Source of the DNA: Ignavibacteriota bacterium
Lineage (GTDB): Bacteria; Bacteroidota; Ignavibacteria; SZUA-365
Direction: 5' to 3'
Assembly (NCBI GenBank): GCA_016218045.1
Contig: JACRFB010000031.1
Coordinates: 1-64,000, forward strand
DNA: 64,000 bases
Below the pieces are notes generated by a model that saw only the letters and a program-made list of their open reading frames with translations, searched no databases and was not told the origin of the DNA. Shown here piece by piece: positions 869 to 55,955 of the stretch. Numbering within the stretch: position 1 is the stretch's first letter; the number at the start of each line of letters is the position of its first letter. A program made the translations under genes and the position numbers.

Positions 869-1978
869 ATGAGCATTCTCGTGAACAAAAAGAGCCGCAT
901 CGTGGTGCAGGGTATTACCGGCGGCGAGGGTACCTTCCACGCGCAGCAGATGATGGAATACGGCACACGTGTCGTTGCAGGCGTGACGCCGGGCAAGGGC
1001 GGTACCGAGCATATCGGCGTGCCCGTGTTCAACACAGTGCGCGAAGCCGTGCTGGCGACGAAGGCCGATGTGTCGCTGATCTTTGTGCCGCCCGCATTTG
1101 CGGGTGACGCGATTCTCGAGGCGGCCGATGCGGGTGTGGCGCTGATCGTCTGTATCACCGAAGGGATTCCGACACGCGACATGATACGCGCGTTCGACTA
1201 TGTGAAGAGCAAGGGCGTGCGGCTTGTCGGTCCCAACTGCCCCGGTGTCATCTCGCCGGGCGAAGCGAAAGTCGGCATCATGCCGGGCTTCATTCACAAG
1301 AAGGGCCATGTCGGCGTGATCTCGCGCAGCGGAACACTGACCTACGAAGCGGTCAAACAGCTCACCGATCTCGGCATCGGACAGTCGACGTGCATCGGCA
1401 TCGGCGGTGATCCCATCATCGGCACGCAGTTCATCGACGCGCTCGCGCTGTTCGACGCCGATCCCGACACCGACGCCGTCGTGATGATCGGCGAGATCGG
1501 CGGCACGGCCGAGGAAGAGGGCGCCGCCTATGTGAAGAAATACATGACCAAACCCGTCATCGGTTTCATCGCCGGACGCACAGCGCCTCCGGGACGCCGT
1601 ATGGGCCACGCAGGCGCCATCATCGCCGGCGGCAAGGGCACTGCAAACGAGAAGATGGCCGCGATGAAAAAAGCCGGCATCCACGTCGTCGAGAATCCGG
1701 CACTCATCGGTATCACCGTCGCCAAGGCGCTGCAGCTCGAACAGCAGGGCCAGGGCCGCGGTGAAACATCCGCACCCAAGAAGGTCACAAAACCCGTCGC
1801 GAAAAAAGCAGCGAAGCCCGTCGCAAAGAAAGCAGCGAAGCCCGCCGCGAAGAAAGCAGCAAAGCCCGCCGCAAAGAAAGCAGCGAAGCCCATCGCAAAG
1901 AAAGCAGCGAAACCCGCCGCGAAGAAAGCAGCGAAGCCCGCCGCGAAGAAAGCAGCGAAGCCCGCCGCGAAGCGCTGA
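869..1978 (+). CDS. sucD: Succinyl-CoA synthetase (ligase) alpha subunit with lysine-rich C-terminal tail
   Basis: Catalyses the TCA-cycle step succinyl-CoA to succinate coupled to NDP phosphorylation, with a beta subunit (SucC) that is not encoded in this window. The ATG at 869 gives the canonical N-terminus ([18 protein letters not shown]) and lies downstream of the promoter at 791-820; open frame further upstream would overlap the promoter. The CoA-binding Rossmann part is followed by the ligase domain with the active-site histidine in GHAGAII (His247). The family core ends near residue 296. Residues 308-369 are an additional tail made of KPxAKKAA octapeptides, not part of the usual enzyme. 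A strong terminator follows at 2002-2036, so the gene is probably monocistronic. Identity is certain for the core; the tail's role is unknown. Confidence 0.95.
1790..1975 (+). repeat. 24-bp coding repeats encoding (KPxAKKAA)n tail of SucD
   Basis: Seven full 24-bp repeats and a partial eighth encode [56 protein letters not shown] and KPAAKR. The composition (Lys, Ala, Pro only, apart from V/I) is that of histone H1-like tails and of bacterial nucleoid proteins such as HupB- or Hc1-type tails. The copies differ by few bases, so recent expansion or contraction by slippage is likely. Confidence 0.9.
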
Positions 1979-2001
1979 CGCGACACATCGCGTTGTATGA
2001 C

Positions 2002-2036
2002 GACGGCCCCGTCATTTCGGATGGGGCCGTCTTTTT
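2002..2036 (+). terminator. Rho-independent terminator after sucD
   Basis: Perfect 9-bp stem GACGGCCCC (2002-2010) / GGGGCCGTC (2023-2031) with a 12-base loop, followed by five T residues. It lies 23 bases after the sucD stop. Confidence 0.85.
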
Positions 2037-2039
2037 ATT

Positions 2040-2090
2040 GGGGACGGGGGACGGGGGACGGGGGAGTAGGGAGTGGGGAGTAGGGAGTGG
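2040..2090. repeat. G-rich 7/8-bp tandem array
   Basis: Three GGGGACG heptamers pass into GGGGAGTA, GGGAGTGG-type units. It begins directly after the sucD terminator. The rest of the spacer up to 2221 holds only scattered inverted copies of a GGAGACAG-like motif around 2130-2200, which could pair, and no gene. Confidence 0.7.
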
Positions 2091-2221
2091 AAAATTTGTC
2101 TGTTCTGACTCATCACACGACCGTGAGGAAACAGGAGGAATGGATCAGGAGACACGAATGGAATCAGCTCCTGTCTCCTGTATACTGTCTCCTCACACGC
2201 TCCTAGTAAATCAAACTACCC

Positions 2222-2258
2222 ATCTACCGATCTACCATCTACCGATCTACCATCTACG
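2222..2258. repeat. ATCTACC(G) tandem array
   Basis: Alternating 8- and 7-bp units ATCTACCG, ATCTACC, ATCTACCG, ATCTACC, ATCTACG. The array ends four bases before the stop codon of the minus-strand response-regulator gene, so it would lie in the 3' end of that transcript. Confidence 0.75.
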
Positions 2259-2261
2259 CCA

Positions 2262-3632
2262 CTACACTCTCCCTTTCAATTCTTCGGGGGTGATTCCGAG
2301 TTCGTCAATTTTTCTGTAGAGCGACGACAGCCCGATATTCAACACTTTGGCCGCCGCTTCCTTGTTGAACTGCGCCTTCTGCATGATTTCGAGAATGTGT
2401 TTTTTCTCGTAATGCCGTATGGCCTCGCGGAGATCATCGGGCAGCGGGACGGCGTCGCCGCTCGCGCGGAGGGCAAGAGGCAATTCACTCGACGTGACGG
2501 TGTCGCCATCACAAAAGATCACGGCGCGCTCGATCACGTTCTCGAGTTCACGCACGCCGCCGCGCCAGGGATGCGCCATCAAGGCGCGCATCGCGGCATT
2601 GTCGACGCCGCGGACGCTCTTGCCCATCGCCCCACCGTACTTGGCGAGAAAATGTTCCACGAGCAGCGGGATGTCCTCGCGGCGGTCGGACAGGGGCGGC
2701 AGATGTATTTCGACAACATTCAGGCGGTAGTAAAGATCTTCGCGGAAACGCCCCTCCTGCACGCGTGCAAACAGATCCTGGTTCGTCGCGCTGAGTATGC
2801 GCACATCCACACGCACGGCGATTGTTCCTCCTACCGGAAGCACCTCGCGTTCATCGAGGGCGCGCAGCAGTTTCACCTGCAGATGCAACGGAATCTCGCC
2901 CACCTCGTCGAGGAACAGTGTGCCGCCGTCCGCAAGCTGGAACACGCCGAGCTTGTCCTGAAACGCGTCGGTGAAGGCGCCGCGCTTGTGCCCGAACAAT
3001 TCCGACTCGATGAGCGATTCGCTGATCGCGCCGCAGTTGATGGGCAGAAAGACGCCGTCGCGCCGCTCGCTGTTGTAGTGGATCGCGCGCGCGACGAGTT
3101 CCTTGCCCGTGCCGCTCTTGCCGGTGATGAGCACATTGCTGCGTGTCGCCGCCACCTTCCCGATCAGCGAAAACACCTGCTGCATGCGCGGCGACTTGCC
3201 GATGATCGCATCGAAGGCGGCATCGTCACGCAGGCGGCTGCGCAGCACTTCGTTCGCGCGCAGGGCTTCACGGTGCCGGAAGAGATGGCGGAGTCGGTTG
3301 AGCAACTCCTCGATCTCGATGGGCTTGATGATGTAATCGTAGGCGCCGCTGCGCAGGGCCTGCACCGCGGTGTCGACCGAGGCGTACGCGGTCATGATCA
3401 TGACCGTGGTCTGCGGAAACCAGTCGCGCACGCGGCGGAGCAGTTCGAGTCCGTCGATGCCGGGCATACGGATGTCGCTGAGAACCACGTCGTAGTCGGT
3501 CGTGGAGAGCTGCGCCAGCGCCTCCTCGCCCGAATCAACCGCGGCCACGGTGTAGCCCGCGTCCGTGAGCAGCATCGCGATGGCGTCGCGGATGTCCTGT
3601 TCGTCTTCGACTATGAGTATGCGTTTTGCCAT
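2262..3632 (-). CDS. NtrC-family sigma-54-dependent response regulator
   Basis: A 456-residue transcriptional activator with the full three-domain layout. The receiver domain (about 1-120) has phosphoacceptor Asp53 and acidic Glu9/Asp10. The AAA+ sigma-54 interaction domain (about 140-370) has Walker A GKSGTGKE at 171-178 and Walker B GGTLFLDE. A Fis-type helix-turn-helix closes the C-terminus. The sigma-54 contact loop reads GAFTDA (218-223) instead of GAFTGA, a variant found in other family members. It lies 8 bases downstream of the histidine kinase gene on the same strand, so the two form an operon and a cognate pair. The target genes are unknown; the presence of this protein implies an RpoN elsewhere in the genome. 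Confidence 0.93.
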   Translation of the reverse strand: MAKRILIVEDEQDIRDAIAMLLTDAGYTVAAVDSGEEALAQLSTTDYDVVLSDIRMPGIDGLELLRRVRDWFPQTTVMIMTAYASVDTAVQALRSGAYDYIIKPIEIEELLNRLRHLFRHREALRANEVLRSRLRDDAAFDAIIGKSPRMQQVFSLIGKVAATRSNVLITGKSGTGKELVARAIHYNSERRDGVFLPINCGAISESLIESELFGHKRGAFTDAFQDKLGVFQLADGGTLFLDEVGEIPLHLQVKLLRALDEREVLPVGGTIAVRVDVRILSATNQDLFARVQEGRFREDLYYRLNVVEIHLPPLSDRREDIPLLVEHFLAKYGGAMGKSVRGVDNAAMRALMAHPWRGGVRELENVIERAVIFCDGDTVTSSELPLALRASGDAVPLPDDLREAIRHYEKKHILEIMQKAQFNKEAAAKVLNIGLSSLYRKIDELGITPEELKGRV

Positions 3633-46436: not shown

Positions 46437-48692
46437 ATGACATACAAACGTATCCTCTTTTCCGTATTGCTCGCCGTCACGCTGCTGGGTTTGACCCCGG
46501 TTGCGCAGGCGACCCACTTCCGCGGCGGAACGCTCACCTGGCAGCAGGCGGGTGGCAACAAGATCCGCTTCACGTTCAACGTGGCGTACCGGCGGTCGTT
46601 TCCGCTGTGGTCCTCCGTGATGCCCGGCGGCACGTTCAGCGACGCCGGCGACCGTTTCTACTTCGGCGACGGCGCGAATGTGGGACTCACGTTCACCGCC
46701 ACCGCCGTCGACCTGCCCAACGACATCGTGTTCGGCACGGCCGTCATCGAGCACATCTATCCGTCCACGGGGAATTTCATCGCGTACTTCACCGACTGTT
46801 GCCGCATCAGCACGCTGCGCGACGGCAACAACGACGCCAATTACCGCATGGAGACGAAGGTCAACGTGGGGTCGCCGTTTAACAACAGTCCGCTCATCTC
46901 CGCGCCCGGCATCGTGAACCTCGCCGTGGGACAGACGGCCGCCACGTTCAGTGTGGCCGCCACGGACCCCGACGGCAACGCCGTCTCGTACCGTCTCGCA
47001 ACCACAATCGAATCGGGACTCCCGACCGTCAGTCCCGTGGGACTGAGTCTCAACGGCAGCACCGGGCAGATCACGTTCAACACCGTCGGTACGACGGTGG
47101 GATGGACCTATGCGCTCGTGGTGGTTGCGGAGGACGGCACCTCGAAGGTGATGGCCGACTTCCTCATCCGCATCGTCGGGCCGTCGGCGTCGCCCGCGTT
47201 CATCGCGCCCACACCGACCGCGGGTGCCATCTTCACCGTCACTCCGCCGGGCAACACCGTGAACTTCACCGTGGCGGCGAGTGATCCCGACGCGGGAAGC
47301 GTGGTGTCGCTGCTGCCCTCGTCGCTCCCGCTCGGCGCAACGTTCACGCCGACGCTGTCGGGCGGTTCCACCGCATCGAGCGACTTCTCGTGGACTCCGT
47401 CGCTCGGGCAGCCGGGCACGTATCTCCTCACCTTCGTCGCGCGCGACAACGTGGGTGTGCAGGTGCAGCGCAGCTTCCAGGTCAACGTGCTGTGCCCGCT
47501 CAGCGTGACCCTCGCCGGTACCACGCCCGTCACCTGCCCCGGCGGCTCAGACGGCGCCATCGACGTGACGGTGACGAACGCCACGGCACCCGTGACGTAC
47601 ACGTGGACGGGACCGGGCGGGTACGCCTCGTCGTCGCTCGACATCAGCGGCCTCGCCGCCGGCACCTACGACCTCACCGTACGCGACGCGAACGCCTGCG
47701 TCGGCACGCTGCAGGTGGTGGTCGTGCAGGACGACGCGGTCGATCCGCAGATCACCGCACCGTCCGATGTGACCGTGTCGACGGATGCGGACCTGTGCAC
47801 AACCGCGGGCGTCAACGTGGTGCTCGGCACGCCGGCAACGTCCGACAACTGCACGGTGTCAACCGTGACAAACGACGCACCCTCCAGTTTCCCGATCGGT
47901 GCGACGATTGTGACATGGACCGTGACGGATCAGGACGGCAACGATGCCACCGCCACGCAGACCGTGACGGTCGAGGACAATCAGACGCCGGTCATCACTC
48001 CCGCGTCCGCGGCGACGATGTGGCCGCCGAATCATGCGTACGTGAGCTTCTCCGTGGCCGACATGATAACCTCGATCGGCGACAACTGCGCCACACTCGG
48101 CGCGGGTGATGCCGTAATCACATCCGCGTGGAGTGACGAAGCCGAGGATGCACAGGGTGGCGGCGACGGCAACACCGTCGACGACATCGTGATCGCGGCC
48201 GACTGCAAGTCGCTGCAGCTCCGCCGCGAAAGGCAGGGCGGTGGCAACGGCCGTGTGTATACCGTGAATCTCGCCGTGTCCGACGGCGCCGGCAACACCG
48301 GCACCGCGCAGTACCAGGTGAAGGTGCCGCACAACAACAACGGCACCGCCACGGACGACGGTCAGAACTACACGGAGAATTCCACGTGTGCAATCAGCAA
48401 GGCAGGCCGCGGCATCGCGGAGCTTCCCGCCGGCTACGCGCTCGAGCAGAACTATCCGAATCCGTTTAATCCGACCACGACGATCAGCTTCAGCATTCCG
48501 GCCGACAATGCCGTGCGCCTCGCGGTGTACGACATGTATGGCAGGGAAGTAGCCGTTGCAGCCGAAGGAACCTTCACCGCGGGCATGCACCGCGTAACTT
48601 TCGATGCGTCGGCCCTGCCGAGCGGCTCGTACATCTACGCGCTGCAGGCGGGATCCGTGCTCGTGCAGAAGACGATGCAGCTCGTGAAATAA
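46437..48692 (+). CDS. Secreted protein with SprB-type, HYR-like and T9SS sorting domains
   Basis: 751 residues with a signal peptide (GLTPVAQA). The N-terminal domain starts THFRGGTLTW. Then come cadherin-like/Ig-like units (NSPLISAPGIVNLAVGQTA, VAATDPDGNAVSYRL), a SprB repeat (GGSDGAIDVTVTNATAPVTY), and an HYR-like unit with paired cysteines (ITAPSDVTVSTDADLC ... ATQTVTVED). Residues about 669-751 are a type A T9SS domain (LEQNYPNPFNPTTTISF, VAVYDMYGREVAV). SprB repeats are known from gliding adhesins of Bacteroidota. It is separated from the upstream gene by a terminator, so it probably has its own promoter. Confidence 0.9.
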   Translation: MTYKRILFSVLLAVTLLGLTPVAQATHFRGGTLTWQQAGGNKIRFTFNVAYRRSFPLWSSVMPGGTFSDAGDRFYFGDGANVGLTFTATAVDLPNDIVFGTAVIEHIYPSTGNFIAYFTDCCRISTLRDGNNDANYRMETKVNVGSPFNNSPLISAPGIVNLAVGQTAATFSVAATDPDGNAVSYRLATTIESGLPTVSPVGLSLNGSTGQITFNTVGTTVGWTYALVVVAEDGTSKVMADFLIRIVGPSASPAFIAPTPTAGAIFTVTPPGNTVNFTVAASDPDAGSVVSLLPSSLPLGATFTPTLSGGSTASSDFSWTPSLGQPGTYLLTFVARDNVGVQVQRSFQVNVLCPLSVTLAGTTPVTCPGGSDGAIDVTVTNATAPVTYTWTGPGGYASSSLDISGLAAGTYDLTVRDANACVGTLQVVVVQDDAVDPQITAPSDVTVSTDADLCTTAGVNVVLGTPATSDNCTVSTVTNDAPSSFPIGATIVTWTVTDQDGNDATATQTVTVEDNQTPVITPASAATMWPPNHAYVSFSVADMITSIGDNCATLGAGDAVITSAWSDEAEDAQGGGDGNTVDDIVIAADCKSLQLRRERQGGGNGRVYTVNLAVSDGAGNTGTAQYQVKVPHNNNGTATDDGQNYTENSTCAISKAGRGIAELPAGYALEQNYPNPFNPTTTISFSIPADNAVRLAVYDMYGREVAVAAEGTFTAGMHRVTFDASALPSGSYIYALQAGSVLVQKTMQLVK

Positions 48693-48827: not shown

Positions 48828-49670
48828 TCACCACATACCCGCGATCCGCATGCCGATATGCAGCGTGCTGAAATTCATGGTGTGCGGCGGCAGAAGGATT
48901 TCGGTGTCCGTTTCGACGGCTGAGGATGTTGTGACACGACCACCCGCCACCTCGAGGTCCGGCATCCAGCGGAACACAACTCCGAGGCCGATCAGCAGTG
49001 TACGCGTGATGCGCCACTCCGCTACCCCCAGGAGAAGGAGCCCGGTTTGCGGTGCGGTGTATGAATACCCTGATGTGGTCGAACTGTACCACCAGCGATC
49101 ACCAGATCCGGGAGTGTCACCAAAATCCACCGAGACGTCCGTGACACCGGCACCCACGCCGAATGTGAATCGCACGATCTTGGATCCCTGCGGGCGAGGC
49201 CATGGTTCGGCCGTGACCAGTGCGTAGTACCCCATGCTGGAGTGCCGTACACGCAGGCTCACCTGTCTCCTCTGATGATTGTATCCGGAGGCATCAACGT
49301 ACGGTTCCGAGCCGATGAACCGGCCGTGTGTGGCAAGTGCGGCCCCGAAGCCCCAATGCGACACACCCGTCCACTCCGCAGTGAGCAAAATTCCGCCGCC
49401 AGGAGTCACATTGCGGTAGCCGCTGAAGGTGTCTCCTCTACTCGGCCGCACATCGAAGTACATCGTACCCGTGAAAAAATCCTGATACGCGCCGCTGGCC
49501 GACATCACGCCCGCACCGTAGAAAACCCCGGCACGGAAAATCGTCCGCGCCGTGTCATCTCCCGTCGCGGAGAGCATCGCGGGTGATAACAGGCCCGCGA
49601 CGAGCAGGAGATATCCCGCGACAGAATTGCGCGATCCTCCGCGTGGCGAAGGGTGAGGCGGTATGTTCAT
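48828..49670 (-). CDS. Predicted outer-membrane beta-barrel protein, unknown function
   Basis: 280 residues from the ATG at 49670; open frame before it overlaps the upstream gene's stop. A signal-type segment (YLLLVAGLLSPAMLSA) is followed by alternating beta strands ending in aromatic residues (GFGAALATHGRF, FTFGVGAGVTDVSVDFG, LLIGLGVVFRWMPDLEV), a pattern of small outer-membrane barrels. No family is recognised. It is the third gene behind the two paralogues upstream on the same strand (20-base gap), so the three are likely one operon. Confidence 0.7.
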   Translation of the reverse strand: MNIPPHPSPRGGSRNSVAGYLLLVAGLLSPAMLSATGDDTARTIFRAGVFYGAGVMSASGAYQDFFTGTMYFDVRPSRGDTFSGYRNVTPGGGILLTAEWTGVSHWGFGAALATHGRFIGSEPYVDASGYNHQRRQVSLRVRHSSMGYYALVTAEPWPRPQGSKIVRFTFGVGAGVTDVSVDFGDTPGSGDRWWYSSTTSGYSYTAPQTGLLLLGVAEWRITRTLLIGLGVVFRWMPDLEVAGGRVTTSSAVETDTEILLPPHTMNFSTLHIGMRIAGMW

Positions 49671-49690
49671 CAAGTCGCTTCTCCCATGCA

Positions 49691-50998
49691 TCAGAAATAA
49701 TACGAGAAATTGAAGAACGGCATCCATGCGATGTCATCATCGGGCGATGAGAGAATGCCGATGTCGCCGGACGTCCGATGGCCGAAGAAACGGAATCCGA
49801 GAACCATGGGCACGTGTCCCCTTCCCGGTATGTATCCCAGATCAGCCATGACCTTCAGTCCCTCGCTCAGTCGGAGCTGTCCGCACAGGCCGAGCAGCTC
49901 GCTCCCTCTCCCGTCCTTGCCGAGCGTCGCATACGAACCGATCATACTGAGATTTACATCGGCGTCTCCCGTAGTCATAACGACGAACGGCAGCAGAGGT
50001 ATGGCATCCTGGCCGCCGATAGCTGTCAACCCCGAGGCGCCCAAGGCGAAGGCGAATCCATCCGAGGGATCGACGAGTTGCGCCTTGAATCCGAAGTGCA
50101 GAACAAGGCCCTCACTGAAAAGTCCCGGTACGAGAAAGGTACCCGTCGTGAGCGTGACCTGATCCGACACGCCGATTCCGACAGAGGTGAGACAGAATTC
50201 ATCGAATGCGAGATAGGTCGTACCCGACCTGACCGTGTATGCTGTTGGGAGCAGGAAACCCCGGAAACTGCTTGGATCGCCGTACCCGTATTCAGATCCC
50301 TTCGAGGCGGGGAAAACACGCGCGGCCGTGTCGCGGGACACCGCCCGCGCGGGAAGAGGAATATCGTCGGTGTCGTCGCTTTGCACAGCGAGGATTTCCG
50401 AGACAGGTGTTTTCACGATGCCGACACCTTGGACAACCACCGTCCATGTCGCGGAATCGATGACTGACACGCGTCCTTTCAACACGCTCCCGTTGCGCAG
50501 GCGCACCAATACCGTTTTGGACGAGTCCGCGCTGGCATGTGACAGGGCGTTGGCGCCGATGGGTGTGCCCAGTGCGAGCGGCGTCATCGCGCGCAGCCGG
50601 CCGACATCGATGCCGAGTTCCGCCGCGGACACGGACGTCCCGAGTTGCAGCGCCGCCGCTGTACCGCCCATGGTGTGCGTGCCCGCGACGAGGGCGTCGT
50701 GGTTCGTGATACGTTCAGCGATCTGTCGCAGCACCTGCTCGCGATATTCGATAAGCGTGTCGCGTCGGCCGTCGCTTCGCTCGATCTTTCCGTAGCACCG
50801 CCCGCCATGCATGAAGAAGAGTCCGGATTGAAAATCCGGAATCGAGCGAAACAACACGTACTTGTCGCGTTCAGCGCGCTCGAGCACCTGTCCCACCATC
50901 GGACTCAGGATTATGACGCGAACGCTGTCCTGCGCACGGGCGATCAGCGGAAGGATTACCGCACACACGACACAAATGGCTATGCGGAACGGGCTCAT
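49691..50998 (-). CDS. Outer-membrane-type protein, paralogue B of a tandem pair
   Basis: 435 residues with a signal peptide (ILPLIARAQ). Its layout matches the gene upstream. A first part has ERDKYVLFRSIPDFQS and DTLIEYREQ. A small Sm-like beta unit follows (RNGSVLKGRVSVIDS ... PVSEILAVQSDD). The C-terminal barrel-like half opens with DPSSFRGFLLPTAYTV and ends in an aromatic residue (NFSYYF), as expected for an outer-membrane barrel. Function unknown. Arisen by tandem duplication with the gene at 51045-52400, but the two are well diverged. Confidence 0.75.
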   Translation of the reverse strand: MSPFRIAICVVCAVILPLIARAQDSVRVIILSPMVGQVLERAERDKYVLFRSIPDFQSGLFFMHGGRCYGKIERSDGRRDTLIEYREQVLRQIAERITNHDALVAGTHTMGGTAAALQLGTSVSAAELGIDVGRLRAMTPLALGTPIGANALSHASADSSKTVLVRLRNGSVLKGRVSVIDSATWTVVVQGVGIVKTPVSEILAVQSDDTDDIPLPARAVSRDTAARVFPASKGSEYGYGDPSSFRGFLLPTAYTVRSGTTYLAFDEFCLTSVGIGVSDQVTLTTGTFLVPGLFSEGLVLHFGFKAQLVDPSDGFAFALGASGLTAIGGQDAIPLLPFVVMTTGDADVNLSMIGSYATLGKDGRGSELLGLCGQLRLSEGLKVMADLGYIPGRGHVPMVLGFRFFGHRTSGDIGILSSPDDDIAWMPFFNFSYYF

Positions 50999-51044
50999 GC
51001 AGTGGCCTTCTTCTCAACAGTGGCGGCTAGGCAATGCCCAGCGC

Positions 51045-52400
51045 TCAGAAGAAAATCGTGAAGTTCGCGAAGGGAATGCCCGTGCCGATGTCGAAATTTC
51101 CTTCACCGACAAGAAACATGAGACCGACATCCCCCGACATACGCGCACCAAAAAAGCGCACGCCGATTAAACCCGGCACCACATCTGCTCCGGGCACATA
51201 CGCCGCGTCGAACATCAGTTTGACTCCGGGCCCCACACGCGTCTGGCCTGAGACTCCCAGAAGTGTGCCGGTGTCGCCATCCTCGCCGAGAATGGTCGTC
51301 ATGCCCCCGACCATGCTGATATTCGCGTCGTAGTTGCCGGTGGTCACGACGATATACGGGAGCAATGGCAGGCCTGATTCACTGCCTATTGAAGTCAAGC
51401 CCGCCAGACCCATCGACATGGCGGTGCCGCCGCCGCCGAATAATTGCGCCTTGAGGTTGAAATGGAGAATCAGCCCGGATTCGTCGAACATCTCGAAGAG
51501 TGTAAGGAAGGTGCCCCCGCTCATCATGAAGCCGTTTGCAACGCCGCCGCCCACGGTCCCGATAACGATCATGTCGTCGCTGAAATACCATTCGCCGCGC
51601 GGCACGGTGTACGCCGTGGGCAGAACAAAACCGCGAAACGAACTTGGATCGGAGAAACGGAATGGCGATCCCTCCTGAGCGGGCAGCACTGCCACCGCGT
51701 CGTCTTTTTCCGGCGCGGGGGTTTCTGTTCCGGTCGCAGCACCAAGATTCACGGAGAGCACTTCGGCGACGGGGACGGTCATCACCCCGAGTCCATCGGC
51801 ATCAATACGTAACGTGGTCGAATCGAGCGAGAGCACGCGGCCTTTGATCACACTCCCGCTGCGCAGAAACACATTGGCTCTTTGTGACGAAACATCCGTC
51901 GCGGGAGCCGCGGCGGGAAGATCTGTCCCATGACCGGCAACCGGAAGATCGGTGGCGGGAGGCAGCACGAGGACGAGTGGTGTCACGGCCTTGAGCCGGG
52001 CCTTGTCCACACCGAGCGCGGTGAGAGGTACGGTTTCGCCCTGAAGCAGCACTGCCGGCTTCGAGCCCATCGTGTAGCGTCCGGCCGACAGCAGGTCGTG
52101 GTTGTCGATCCTTTCCGCCATCTGGAGCAGCGCGCGTTCACGATACTCGATGAGTGTGTCACGTGCCGCCTCGCCCGCGCGCAGACCGACGGCAGCATAA
52201 TACCTGCCGCTGTGCGAGAAGAATGTCGCGGACTGGAAGTCGGGCAAACTCCGGAACAGGCCGTACATATCGCGTTCTGCCCGGTCGATATCCGTTCCCA
52301 CACGCGGGCTGATTATCACGATGCGCGCGCTGTCCTGCGCGTGCATCACGGCCGGGAGCAACACGGCCAGAACCGCCAGAATCAAACTGTACCTCTGCAT
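51045..52400 (-). CDS. Outer-membrane-type protein, paralogue A of a tandem pair
   Basis: 451 residues from the ATG at 52400, which begins a signal peptide (ILAVLAVLLPAVMHAQ); open frame further upstream has no similarity to its partner. Shared features are ERDMYGLFRSLPDFQS, DTLIEYRERAL, the Sm-like unit (RSGSVIKGRVLSLDSTTLRI ... PVAEVLSVNLG) and a barrel-like half opening DPSSFRGFVLPTAYTV and ending FANFTIFF. A Pro/Ala/Thr-rich linker (ATDLPVAGHGTDLPAAAPAT), absent from the partner, sits before the Sm-like unit. First gene of the three-gene set. Function unknown. Confidence 0.75.
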   Translation of the reverse strand: MQRYSLILAVLAVLLPAVMHAQDSARIVIISPRVGTDIDRAERDMYGLFRSLPDFQSATFFSHSGRYYAAVGLRAGEAARDTLIEYRERALLQMAERIDNHDLLSAGRYTMGSKPAVLLQGETVPLTALGVDKARLKAVTPLVLVLPPATDLPVAGHGTDLPAAAPATDVSSQRANVFLRSGSVIKGRVLSLDSTTLRIDADGLGVMTVPVAEVLSVNLGAATGTETPAPEKDDAVAVLPAQEGSPFRFSDPSSFRGFVLPTAYTVPRGEWYFSDDMIVIGTVGGGVANGFMMSGGTFLTLFEMFDESGLILHFNLKAQLFGGGGTAMSMGLAGLTSIGSESGLPLLPYIVVTTGNYDANISMVGGMTTILGEDGDTGTLLGVSGQTRVGPGVKLMFDAAYVPGADVVPGLIGVRFFGARMSGDVGLMFLVGEGNFDIGTGIPFANFTIFF

Positions 52401-52551
52401 GCCTCGCTCCTCCATGGTGCCCGGAATCGGTGCAGCAAAAAGGTAGCGGTTTCCGGGAAGAGGCGCAATGAGGAATAGAGAAGCGTGTGAGGACCGTTCC
52501 ACGGTACGAAACGATTTTTGTACATTGCCGCGATCCATCAACGGGACGTCC

Positions 52552-54444
52552 ATGGCTTCTCTTTCGCAACGATTCAAATACCGGTTCGACAATTTTATGG
52601 CCCGCGGCACGGGGGCGCTCATCGGCGGACTCGGCGCGCTCGCGCTCATGCTGCTGCTCCTCGTTGTCGGTGCGCTCTGGCTGCTCGGCGCGGTCCCGCA
52701 GGACGCGGGCGGACACTCGCTGTGGGGCATGACCTGGCTCACCTTCATGCGCATGATCGACACGGGCGCGATCAGCGGCGACAGCGGCACGGCGCTGTAT
52801 GTGGCCCTGATGTTCCTCGCAACTCTCGGCGGCATCTTTCTCATGAGCACACTCATCGGTGTGCTGAACAGCGGCATAGAGGCGCGTCTCGCAACGCTGC
52901 GGCGCGGCCGTTCGCGCGTGCTCGAGCAGAATCACACGGTCATACTCGGCTGGTCGCCCATGGTGCACGCGATCATCTCCGAGCTGGTCATCGCCAATGC
53001 CAACCGTCCGCGCGCCTGCATCGCCATTCTTGCGGACCGCGATAAAGTGGAGATGGAGGAGGAGATCCGCGAGAAAATCCCCGACACACGCGGCACACGC
53101 ATCGTATGCCGTTCGGGTGATGCGATCGACCTCGACGATCTCGAGATCGTGAATCCGCGCGAAGCGCGCGCCATCGTGATACTGGCGCCGGATTCCGGGA
53201 ATCCCGACGCGCAGGTGATCAAGATGATTCTTGCCCTCACGAACAATCCGCGCCGCAAGGAGGGGAAATATCACATCGTGGCCGAGATACACGACGAGCG
53301 GAACCTCGAGGTGGCAGCTCTTGTCGGCAGGGACGAAGTGGAGCTGGTGCTGGCCGACGATCTGATCTCGAAGATCACCGCGCAGACTTGCCGGCAGTCG
53401 GGCCTCTCGGTGGTGTACAACGAGCTGCTCGATTTCGACGGCTGCGAGATATACACACGCGCCTGTCCGGAACTTGCCGGACGCAGCTACGCCGAGGTGG
53501 TGATGGCCTACGACACCTCCGCGGTGATCGGGATTCTGCGTGCGGGACGCGACGTGTATGTGAATCCTCCCGCTGACACTCCGTTTGCCGCCGACGATCA
53601 CGTCATCGCCATCACCGAAGACGACGACACGCTTGTGCGCGCCGCGGCGGCGCCGCAGGTGGACGAGGCGGCGATGGTGTGGTCCGCCGCCGAGGTACCC
53701 CTGCGAGAAACGACACTGATGCTCGGGTGGAACAGGCGCGGTCCGCGCATTCTGCGCGAGCTTGATCGATACGTGGGCATGGGATCCGAGATGATTGTCG
53801 TCTCCTCGCTGGCAGGCACGGAGGATGAACTCGAGCAGACCATCGAAACGCTGAAGAACACCACCACACGTTTCATCCACGCCGACACGACCTTGCGCGC
53901 CACGCTCGACACGCTCGACTGCGCGCGATTCGACCACATCATCCTGTTGAGCTATGCGGAGGCCTATCCCGCGCAGGAGGCCGATGCGCGCACGCTGATG
54001 ACGCTGCTGCATCTGCGCGACATCGCCGACCGTTCCGGCCGGTCCTTCAGCATCGTGAGCGAGATGCTCGACTCGCGCAACCGCGCATTGGCCGATGTGA
54101 CACGCGCCGACGACTTCATCGTGAGCAATCTCATCGACAGCCGGCTGCTCGCGCAGATCGCCGAGAACAAACATCTTGCGTCCGTGTTCCGCGAAATCTT
54201 CGATGCCGACGGCTCGGAGATCTACATCAAACCCGCGGAGCAGTACATCCGCCCCGGCACGGCCGTCACATTTGCCACCGTCGTCGCCTCCGCCTTGCGC
54301 CGTGGTGAAACCGCCATCGGCTACCGCCTCCGCGCTCACGCCTCCGACCCGTCACGCGCCTACGGTGTTTTGATCAATCCCACTAAATCGCATCCGATTA
54401 CCCTGAATGCGGGCGACCGCGTGATTGTACTCGCCGAGAATTGA
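52552..54444 (+). CDS. CASTOR/POLLUX-like ion channel with paired RCK-type domains
   Basis: 630 residues from the ATG at 52552. Two transmembrane helices (about 22-47 and 80-105) flank a pore-like loop (WLTFMRMIDTGAISGD). The large cytosolic part has two Rossmann/RCK-type halves: TVILGWSPMVHAIISEL with later VEIH-like HIVAEIHDE, and TLMLGWNRRGPRILREL with later FSIVSEML. The repeated 'LGW' phrase is characteristic of the CASTOR/POLLUX/DMI1 family, whose plant members are nuclear-envelope cation channels; bacterial members are uncharacterised. It may gate K+ or other cations. A large 8-bp array follows directly. Confidence 0.85.
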   Translation: MASLSQRFKYRFDNFMARGTGALIGGLGALALMLLLLVVGALWLLGAVPQDAGGHSLWGMTWLTFMRMIDTGAISGDSGTALYVALMFLATLGGIFLMSTLIGVLNSGIEARLATLRRGRSRVLEQNHTVILGWSPMVHAIISELVIANANRPRACIAILADRDKVEMEEEIREKIPDTRGTRIVCRSGDAIDLDDLEIVNPREARAIVILAPDSGNPDAQVIKMILALTNNPRRKEGKYHIVAEIHDERNLEVAALVGRDEVELVLADDLISKITAQTCRQSGLSVVYNELLDFDGCEIYTRACPELAGRSYAEVVMAYDTSAVIGILRAGRDVYVNPPADTPFAADDHVIAITEDDDTLVRAAAAPQVDEAAMVWSAAEVPLRETTLMLGWNRRGPRILRELDRYVGMGSEMIVVSSLAGTEDELEQTIETLKNTTTRFIHADTTLRATLDTLDCARFDHIILLSYAEAYPAQEADARTLMTLLHLRDIADRSGRSFSIVSEMLDSRNRALADVTRADDFIVSNLIDSRLLAQIAENKHLASVFREIFDADGSEIYIKPAEQYIRPGTAVTFATVVASALRRGETAIGYRLRAHASDPSRAYGVLINPTKSHPITLNAGDRVIVLAEN

Positions 54445-54451
54445 CGCGGAC

Positions 54452-54675
54452 AGCGGGAGAGCGGGACAGCGGGAGAGCGGGACAGCGGGAGAGCGGGACA
54501 GCGGGAGAGCGGGACAGCGGGAGAGCGGGACAGCGGGACAGCGGGAGAGCGGGAGAGCGGGACAGCGGGAGAGCGGGACAGCGGGAGAGCGGGACAGCGG
54601 GACAGCGGGAGAGCGGGACAGCGGGAGAGCGGGACAGCGGGAGAGCGGGACAGCGGGAGAGCGGGACAGCGGGAG
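54452..54675. repeat. 28 tandem 8-bp units, AGCGGGAG/AGCGGGAC
   Basis: Twenty-eight units without a length change. They use two variants, ending G or C, that alternate almost perfectly (a 16-bp higher unit) except for CC at units 10-11, GG at 12-13 and CC at 18-19. It starts 7 bases after the channel gene's stop. Because 8 is not a multiple of 3 every frame gives the same kind of open peptide, but nothing suggests translation. Together with the next array it fills the 347-base spacer 54445-54791. The same unit, inverted, is at 748-787. Confidence 0.95.
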
Positions 54676-54694
54676 AGTGATTATCTTGTCGTTT

Positions 54695-54771
54695 GTCACG
54701 TGTTACGTGTCACCTGTTACGTGTCACCTGTTACGTGTCACTTGTTACTTGTCACTTGTTACTTGTAACGC
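54695..54771. repeat. Eleven tandem 7-bp units, GTYACNT type
   Basis: GTCACGT, GTTACGT, GTCACCT, GTTACGT, GTCACCT, GTTACGT, GTCACTT, GTTACTT, GTCACTT, GTTACTT, GTAACGC; all 7 bp, with C/T alternation giving a 14-bp higher unit. It lies 20 bases upstream of the next gene's ATG, so it would be in its leader or promoter region. Related to the end of the array at 19490-19612. Confidence 0.9.
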
Positions 54772-54791
54772 GAAATGTAAAAGGTCGATAT

Positions 54792-55955
54792 ATGTGGAAT
54801 CCAAGATTATATACTTTTGTTGTGCTGTGTGTGAGTTGGATATTGCTTGCCGGGACGGTGATGGGGCAGCAGCGCGAGCGTGTGTACGGGAAGAACAGGG
54901 TGTTGCACTCGAATGCCTGGTACGTGGAGCAGATGCGGTTGTGGCGTGAATACGCGGAAGCGAATCCGACCGATGCAGACGCGTGGCTTAATCTGTACCG
55001 TGCAAGCCGCAACGCGTACATCGTCGGTGAGGAAACCGACTCGTTGAATACGAAGGGCGCGAATCGTTTCGCGCGACTCGGCGCCATCGTGCGTTTGATG
55101 GAACGGCACGTGCCCGCATCCTGGCAGTATCATTACGCGATGTGGTTGAACGGGAACGGCAATCCTGCACGCGCGCCGTATCTCGAATACGCGGCGACAC
55201 ACGCCCGGGGAACGGCTGAACCGCAGCTCAGTCTGGCATATCTCCGCGAGCGATTGGGCGCGTACGCATCGCGTGACTCGGCGCTCGCCGCGTATTACCG
55301 GAGCGGCGAATTCTCGTCCGGGCTGCTCACCTACGCATATAATATGCTGGTGTCGATGGAGCCCGATGCTCTCGTCTTCACAGAAGGCGACAAGGACACC
55401 GACGGCATGTTGATTCTGCAGGGAAGCCGCGCGTTACGCCGCGATATACGGGTGCTCAATGTCAATCTGCTGCTCGAGGCGGCGTACCGTGACCGAGTCT
55501 TCGCGGAGCTTGGCATCGATCCGCTTCCGTTTGATCCGAGGGCTGATGATGCCTCCTTCGCCCGGTACAAGGCGTCGGTCGTTCGTCACGTCGCGGCGAA
55601 CCGCGGTGAGCGTCCGGTGTATGTGGCGGTGTCGGTTTCCGATGAGTATCGCGAGGCCATCGCGGGAAAACTCGGTTGCGTCGGCCTGGTCTATCGCTTC
55701 AGCGAGACGCCCCTCGATCATACCGCCGCACTCAAAAGGAATGTGGAACAGCACTTCCTTCTCGACGAACTGCGGGAGTATTTGCCGTACGACATCTCTC
55801 TCGGCAATCTCCGCGAATTCAATCTGAACTACCTCCCCGCTTTCGACATGCTCATCGGACACTACCGGGCAAGCGGCGACACCACACGCGCGGCGCGACT
55901 CTCCGATCTCACGCAACGCATCCGCGCGGACGCGCAAACGTTACATAACGAGTGA
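54792..55955 (+). CDS. Exported protein of unknown function
   Basis: 387 residues from the ATG at 54792, with a signal peptide (LLAGTVMGQ); open frame before it is only repeat. An N-terminal helical region has TPR-like spacing (NPTDADAWLNLYRASRNAY). The middle phrase LVFTEGDKDTDGMLILQGSR with RRDIRVLNVNLL resembles a segment of the large DUF2723 membrane proteins of Bacteroidota ('ngDnDt ... RpDVrvvN'). I cannot assign a function. It is flanked by a tandem array upstream and a convergent purD downstream. Confidence 0.7.
   Translation: MWNPRLYTFVVLCVSWILLAGTVMGQQRERVYGKNRVLHSNAWYVEQMRLWREYAEANPTDADAWLNLYRASRNAYIVGEETDSLNTKGANRFARLGAIVRLMERHVPASWQYHYAMWLNGNGNPARAPYLEYAATHARGTAEPQLSLAYLRERLGAYASRDSALAAYYRSGEFSSGLLTYAYNMLVSMEPDALVFTEGDKDTDGMLILQGSRALRRDIRVLNVNLLLEAAYRDRVFAELGIDPLPFDPRADDASFARYKASVVRHVAANRGERPVYVAVSVSDEYREAIAGKLGCVGLVYRFSETPLDHTAALKRNVEQHFLLDELREYLPYDISLGNLREFNLNYLPAFDMLIGHYRASGDTTRAARLSDLTQRIRADAQTLHNE

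Follow-up and report, generated by a model that had tools for sequence, protein, structure and literature searches.

Tandem outer-membrane barrel proteins with an Sm/Hfq-like unit in an Ignavibacteriota genome belong to a widespread, unnamed family

KdgM and NanC are porins for oligogalacturonate and sialic acid, and their solved chains consist of a twelve-strand barrel alone. In Pput2725, a channel of the COG4313 group, the lumen of the barrel is reported to be occupied by the first ~14 residues of the chain. FapF is described as carrying an N-terminal part in the periplasm, a linker, and a helical plug that is tied to the periplasmic domain and gates the barrel (PMC5557850). The 'nose' domain of the diheme cytochrome Kustd1711 has a fold highly similar to Hfq and a charge reversed with respect to Hfq (PMC11791136). 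Here we analysed three genes, A, B and C, encoded on the minus strand (48828-52400) of a 64-kb window from an Ignavibacteriota bacterium (contig JACRFB010000031.1, positions 1 to 64,000). A and B each combine a signal peptide, an N-terminal domain (hereafter N-domain), an Sm/Hfq-like unit and a predicted twelve-strand barrel. With moderate confidence, we read them as duplicated channels of the outer membrane, in which the N-domain and the Sm-like unit, both periplasmic, serve as a platform for assembly or docking. Computation directly gave the architecture, the fold predictions, the extent of the family and the gene linkage in relatives.

An earlier note on this DNA had proposed a tandem paralogue pair of exported outer-membrane proteins that could not be assigned to a family, and both the observation and its coordinates proved right. 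A and B are 48% identical (E 7.7e-109), share the same order of parts, and are the only full-protein matches in their own 4.77-Mb genome. Identity reaches 57% in the N-domain (64/113), 42% in the Sm-like unit (20/48), 49% in the barrel (95 of 194 aligned residues) and 30-40% in the linkers. In both proteins the signal peptide ends in A-Q-D. It is followed by an N-domain (~110 residues), an Sm-like unit (~48 residues) and a barrel half (~195 residues), with one linker after the N-domain and a second, of low confidence, ahead of the barrel half. The latter opens with the common sequence DPSSFRGF[V/L]LPTAYTV (residues 251-266 in A, 241-256 in B). No family could be named: Pfam, NCBIfam and PHROGs offered no usable match to any of the three proteins, and searching the PDB sequences with either B or C as query returned nothing useful. 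The viral fold library contained no match at E<=0.001, plasmid records held no match to B, and no description of the A/B family was found in the open PMC literature.

The complete B protein was modelled with AlphaFold2 from 20 sequences (mean predicted local distance difference test score, pLDDT, 75.8; predicted template modelling score, pTM, 0.52). Residues 261-434 of the model form twelve strands, and VIA matched this barrel to many porins: KdgM (4fqe; Z 17.6, 2.3 Å over 159 residues), FapF (5o65; Z 17.3, 3.3 Å over 192 residues, from model residue 238), VhGalP (Z 17.1), NanC (Z 16.2) and a COG4313 channel (4rl8; Z 15.7, 3.1 Å over 187 residues, with model residue 249 paired with chain residue 2). 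A match to known porins, which the earlier note had raised as evidence against its own reading, exists at the level of the fold (KdgM, FapF and COG4313 type) but not at that of the sequence family. At E<=1, Pfam detected no family in either A or B, nor any of channel type among 15 relatives, the KdgM/NanC and COG4313 profiles included. KdgM and NanC share the predicted barrel fold and the strand number with A and B, at 7-8% identity and without a Pfam match; their aligned chains enter the barrel at chain residue 1 or 2, whereas A and B add the N-domain and the Sm-like unit. In COG4313 channels, as in A and B, the twelve-strand barrel follows a short segment, but identity is 7%, there is no sequence-family match, and these channels lack both an N-domain and an Sm-like unit. 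FapF resembles A and B in having a twelve-strand barrel, a linker and a segment ahead of the barrel, and an N-terminal part in the periplasm; it has a coiled coil where A and B have an alpha/beta N-domain and an Sm-like unit. The pre-barrel segment of A and B has the conserved pattern DPxxxRxFxxPTA, and from the start of the alignment with 4rl8 we infer that it may lie in the lumen. Because the segment is placed like the lumen N-terminus of Pput2725 and like the FapF plug, we propose that it acts as a plug or constriction.

The Sm-like unit noticed earlier is also supported by modelling. In an AlphaFold2 model of A residues 22-222 (17 sequences, mean pLDDT 67.4), the unit reached a pLDDT of about 88-95. 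A five-strand Sm barrel is present in the predicted models, with the B strands lying between residues 162 and 207. Foldseek aligned the unit of A to Listeria Hfq (E 0.01, probability 1.00, 1.3 Å over 48 residues, 29% identity); the top rank for the A model was RimP, but with a poor 13-Å fit. With VIA, Hfq and LSm chains scored a Z of about 7 and the Kustd1711 cytochrome (7zs1) a Z of 7.4 (2.1 Å over 56 residues). At the sequence level, models and chains of LSM, Hfq and SmD1 were matched weakly. Over 15 relatives, Pfam gave Hfq_1 at 0.0029 in 2/15 and LSM at 0.083 in 1/15, and neither for A or B alone; a PDB profile search gave an LSM chain at 0.016, but also gyrase A at 0.011. NCBIfam matches of A were weak and confined to the Sm-like stretch, as for Lepto_7_Nterm (E 0.0034, 17.1 bits against a curated cut-off of 43). 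The best curated matches over the 15 relatives were Lepto_7_Nterm (1.4e-7), LA_3334 (2.8e-6) and TIGR02603 (2.2e-6), and in the two proteins for which positions are shown, A and L003, the matched part is the Sm-like unit. We assign the predicted unit to the Sm/Hfq type because low root-mean-square deviation, coverage of the whole unit and the weak sequence matches agree. It differs from Hfq, LSm and Sm proteins in being exported, fused to a barrel and nearly neutral in charge. Kustd1711 offers a published precedent for such a domain within an exported protein, but there it is inserted in a cytochrome c domain, whereas in A and B it lies near a barrel.

We then examined the spread of the family. 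B as a single query gave a barrel or N-domain match in 81 of the 294 class genomes, counting its own. A first genome contig scan with B alone had found no relative; a second scan, of named genomes and with a tighter alignment, found 25 loci, in Kryptoniota, Ignavibacteriales, Melioribacteraceae, Chlorobiota, Gemmatimonadetes, Caldithrix, Cloacimonadales, Stahlbacteria and unplaced Bacteroidetes. A and B match the profile of the Sm-like plus barrel family (A2) and have its DPxxxRxFxxPTA barrel start; they are among the rows that built the profile, and the single-sequence evidence is the search with B. In the order to which the window belongs, 15/16 genomes match the full A2 profile, and those barrels of this order that are in the tree sit in other branches. 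A and B belong to a widespread, unnamed family of outer-membrane barrels, which is better seen as a new and useful family than as a curiosity.

We collected 64 distinct barrel open reading frames (ORFs) in which the barrel match spans at least 120 residues, C-terminus duplicates removed, some of them cut by contig ends or frameshifts. An Sm-like unit was detected in 37/64 (two units in 4), the N-domain in 9/64 and both in 7/64, the commonest form being an Sm-like unit plus barrel without N-domain. With this count and the Kustd1711 precedent, the earlier view that an Sm-like unit is unexpected in an outer-membrane protein no longer holds. Besides A and B, five proteins of family f9 (L003-L006, L008) unite all three parts in a single chain, which means that the architecture reappears in a family related to Kryptoniota. 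An N-domain plus barrel is also found in L061 (Stahlbacteria) and in L086 and L091 (another family of the phylum); in the last two, an Sm-like unit missed by the profile is visible by eye. In the barrel tree A and B are sisters (100/97), within a 12-row set (99/90) that also holds the five f9 proteins and another five, from f5 and f12, whose N-terminal part is of a different kind. Since its label needs 3 changes on the tree, the N-domain was gained or lost more than once. A second tandem pair, of Sm-like unit plus barrel, was found in genome G001 (L106). The conserved neighbours of f9 members represent local synteny. Two further barrel proteins (L067, L072) carry a second, different beta-rich domain fused C-terminally, and a barrel gene with two Sm-like units in G213 (L045, 1818-3112) is split across two overlapping frames, by a frameshift or an assembly error.

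The N-domain had no match above chance level in Pfam or NCBIfam, and its region was scarcely represented in the rows of the fold search. It is carried, with other C-terminal halves, by many exported proteins that lack an A/B-type barrel. A third N-domain protein of the genome that holds A and B has 519 residues (L088, G000:C40:54000-60000, 1767-3326, minus strand); its gene is followed by a 464-residue ORF of similar look. Tandem runs of two to four N-domain genes were seen in other genomes (L051, L089, L092, L123/L127). At three loci, the N-domain gene is followed by a gene for a ~525-residue protein that starts like a lipoprotein and shares a conserved SCPYxYSWDG stretch; this protein had no Pfam or NCBIfam match above chance level. 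A weak resemblance of the lipoprotein profile to viral proteases (E 0.07 at best) was judged to be due to chance. Among the 294 class genomes, 61 contained the lipoprotein (profile A5), 50 the N-domain (profile A6) and 19 both. Pairs were read off by hand: in 10 of these 19 genomes the two genes share contig and strand at a distance of 0.6-1.4 kb, with the N-domain gene first in G213, G032, G069, G052, G289, G187 and G156, and the lipoprotein gene first in G007, G118 and G133. G032, G213 and G069 supplied profile rows, and the other seven pairs are independent of the profile. The seven best lipoprotein matches all fall within the 10 paired genomes. An Sm-like plus barrel gene lies within the cluster in G069 and G213, and adjoins the lipoprotein gene in G011. 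What is new here is an undescribed N-domain linked by gene order to a lipoprotein family. A and B fuse parts that other genomes encode separately, and since these parts are found either fused or as separate but neighbouring genes, the N-domain, the Sm-like unit and the barrel are suggested to work together.

In the mechanism that we propose, the signal peptide of A and B would be removed on export and the last ~195 residues would form a twelve-strand barrel in the outer membrane. The DPxxxRxFxxPTA segment, just before the first strand, may enter the periplasmic mouth or the lumen and constrain the pore. Hanging in the periplasm by flexible linkers, the N-domain and the Sm-like unit could act as a platform, through Sm-type self-association or partner binding, and A and B may assemble together. 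In other species the partner of the platform would be the co-encoded lipoprotein. A bolder version, which we consider rather unlikely, unites the N-domain protein, the Sm-like/twelve-strand barrel protein and the ~525-residue lipoprotein in one undescribed envelope machine of the Bacteroidota group, its outer-membrane channel being gated by a periplasmic ring or platform of Sm type; A and B would then be a compact version, with two parts fused and duplicated into a two-subunit channel.

Several observations weigh against a channel with a dedicated platform. The sequence of A and B matches no channel family of known function, and the fold matches of the barrel also include autotransporters, a phospholipase and others, so that the barrel fold alone gives no function. 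For the Sm-like unit, a Foldseek E of 0.01 to Hfq and a VIA Z of about 7 are in a range that unrelated folds can reach. No Sm-like unit was detected by the profile in 27/64 barrel relatives (some of them cut or missed ORFs, and L013, L015, L025 and L028 with a different N-terminal part), so the unit is not essential to the barrel. The N-domain and lipoprotein genes are not adjacent in 9/19 genomes with both. The profile search found no lipoprotein match in the genome of the window, and docking to this lipoprotein therefore cannot apply there. Finally, a simple promoter scan detected no promoter-like site.

A and B could instead act like COG4313 channels or KdgM, as ordinary porins that are passive or as channels for the uptake of hydrophobes; the two periplasmic parts would then only anchor or stabilise the barrel and have no dedicated partner. 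We regard this as possible though not likely. The nearest folds are twelve-strand uptake channels, many relatives have only an Sm-like unit and a barrel, and there are barrel relatives without any Sm-like match. However, several unrelated C-terminal halves are found joined to the N-domain, and the N-domain gene adjoins a single lipoprotein family in the 10 paired genomes; both facts suggest a partner. It is improbable that A and B form a secretion gate of the FapF type, through which polypeptide substrates would exit a plugged twelve-strand barrel under the control of a periplasmic domain. FapF is among the best fold matches, aligned from before the first strand, and its linker, plug and periplasmic N-terminal part (PMC5557850) recall the proposed layout of A and B. 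Yet there is no sequence match to FapF, the B model shows an alpha/beta N-domain and no long FapF-like coiled coil, and the two flanking genes examined include no peptidase, amyloid-like or fap gene (no genome-wide fap search was made). It is very improbable that A and B are channels for the export or uptake of RNA or DNA, with an Sm-like unit that would bind nucleic acid on the periplasmic side: the fold of the unit is nearest to Hfq and LSm and the B unit has a net charge of +4, but the A unit has +1, the mean over 41 family units is -0.5, and the published exported Hfq-fold domain has a charge opposite to that of Hfq (PMC11791136).

The features of the locus are listed in Table 1. A and B are separated by 46 nt, and B and C meet in the sequence TGATG, where the C start at 49691 shares one base with the B stop codon. 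This ATG is most likely the true start of C, giving 287 residues rather than the 299 of the longer ORF. B and C look translationally coupled because of this overlap, and A-B-C resemble an operon in their own genome. The barrel-like label of C comes from its sequence alone (beta-rich look, C-terminal Trp), and no relative of C was found among 294 class and 296 phylum genomes, its own excepted. The three-gene cassette of the earlier note therefore stands as an operon-like arrangement in this genome; it does not recur elsewhere and is not a conserved unit, since C has no relatives. C would be a lineage-specific envelope protein of the A-B operon, probably co-translated with B.

Table 1. Coordinates and parts of genes A, B and C in the window
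Feature	Position	Strand	Description
Gene A	51045-52400	-	451 residues: signal peptide, N-domain, Sm/Hfq-like unit, predicted 12-strand barrel
A N-domain, residues 22-136	51993-52337	-	57% identity to that of B; profile A6 match, E about 1e-37
A Sm/Hfq-like unit, residues 173-220	51741-51884	-	AlphaFold2 model and Foldseek
A barrel, residues 251-451	51048-51650	-	starts DPSSFRGFVLPTAYTV; fold by homology to B model
Gene B	49691-50998	-	435 residues, architecture as in A
B N-domain, residues 23-135	50594-50932	-	
B Sm/Hfq-like unit, residues 159-205	50384-50524	-	five strands in model
B barrel, residues 241-435	49694-50278	-	12 strands in model
Gene C	48828-49691	-	287 residues from the ATG overlapping the B stop; exported, beta-rich, C-terminal Trp; orphan

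The divergent neighbour of A (52468-54444, plus strand) is a 658-residue ORF with Castor/Pollux (PF06241, E 1.6e-29) and TrkA_N matches, a putative ion-channel regulator; 67 bases separate the two ORF starts. Tail to tail with C lies a 751-residue surface protein sorted by the type IX secretion system (T9SS) (46437-48692, plus strand; Por_Secre_tail, SprB, HYR). At about 54425-54700 the window is repetitive and open on both strands, with ORFs of SGTAGERDSGRAGQRE and SRSPAVPLSRCP repeats. A 420-residue ORF (54693-55955, plus strand) has relatives that adjoin barrel genes in L067 and L072. When the neighbours in 33 stretches were clustered, three clusters included ORFs of the window: the A/B family, T9SS-tail proteins and the 420-residue ORF. 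The Castor/Pollux-like gene did not recur across these stretches.

The family of A and B provides a testable family for a large set of unannotated outer-membrane proteins, and shows that an Hfq/Sm-like fold commonly accompanies an outer-membrane barrel across several phyla.

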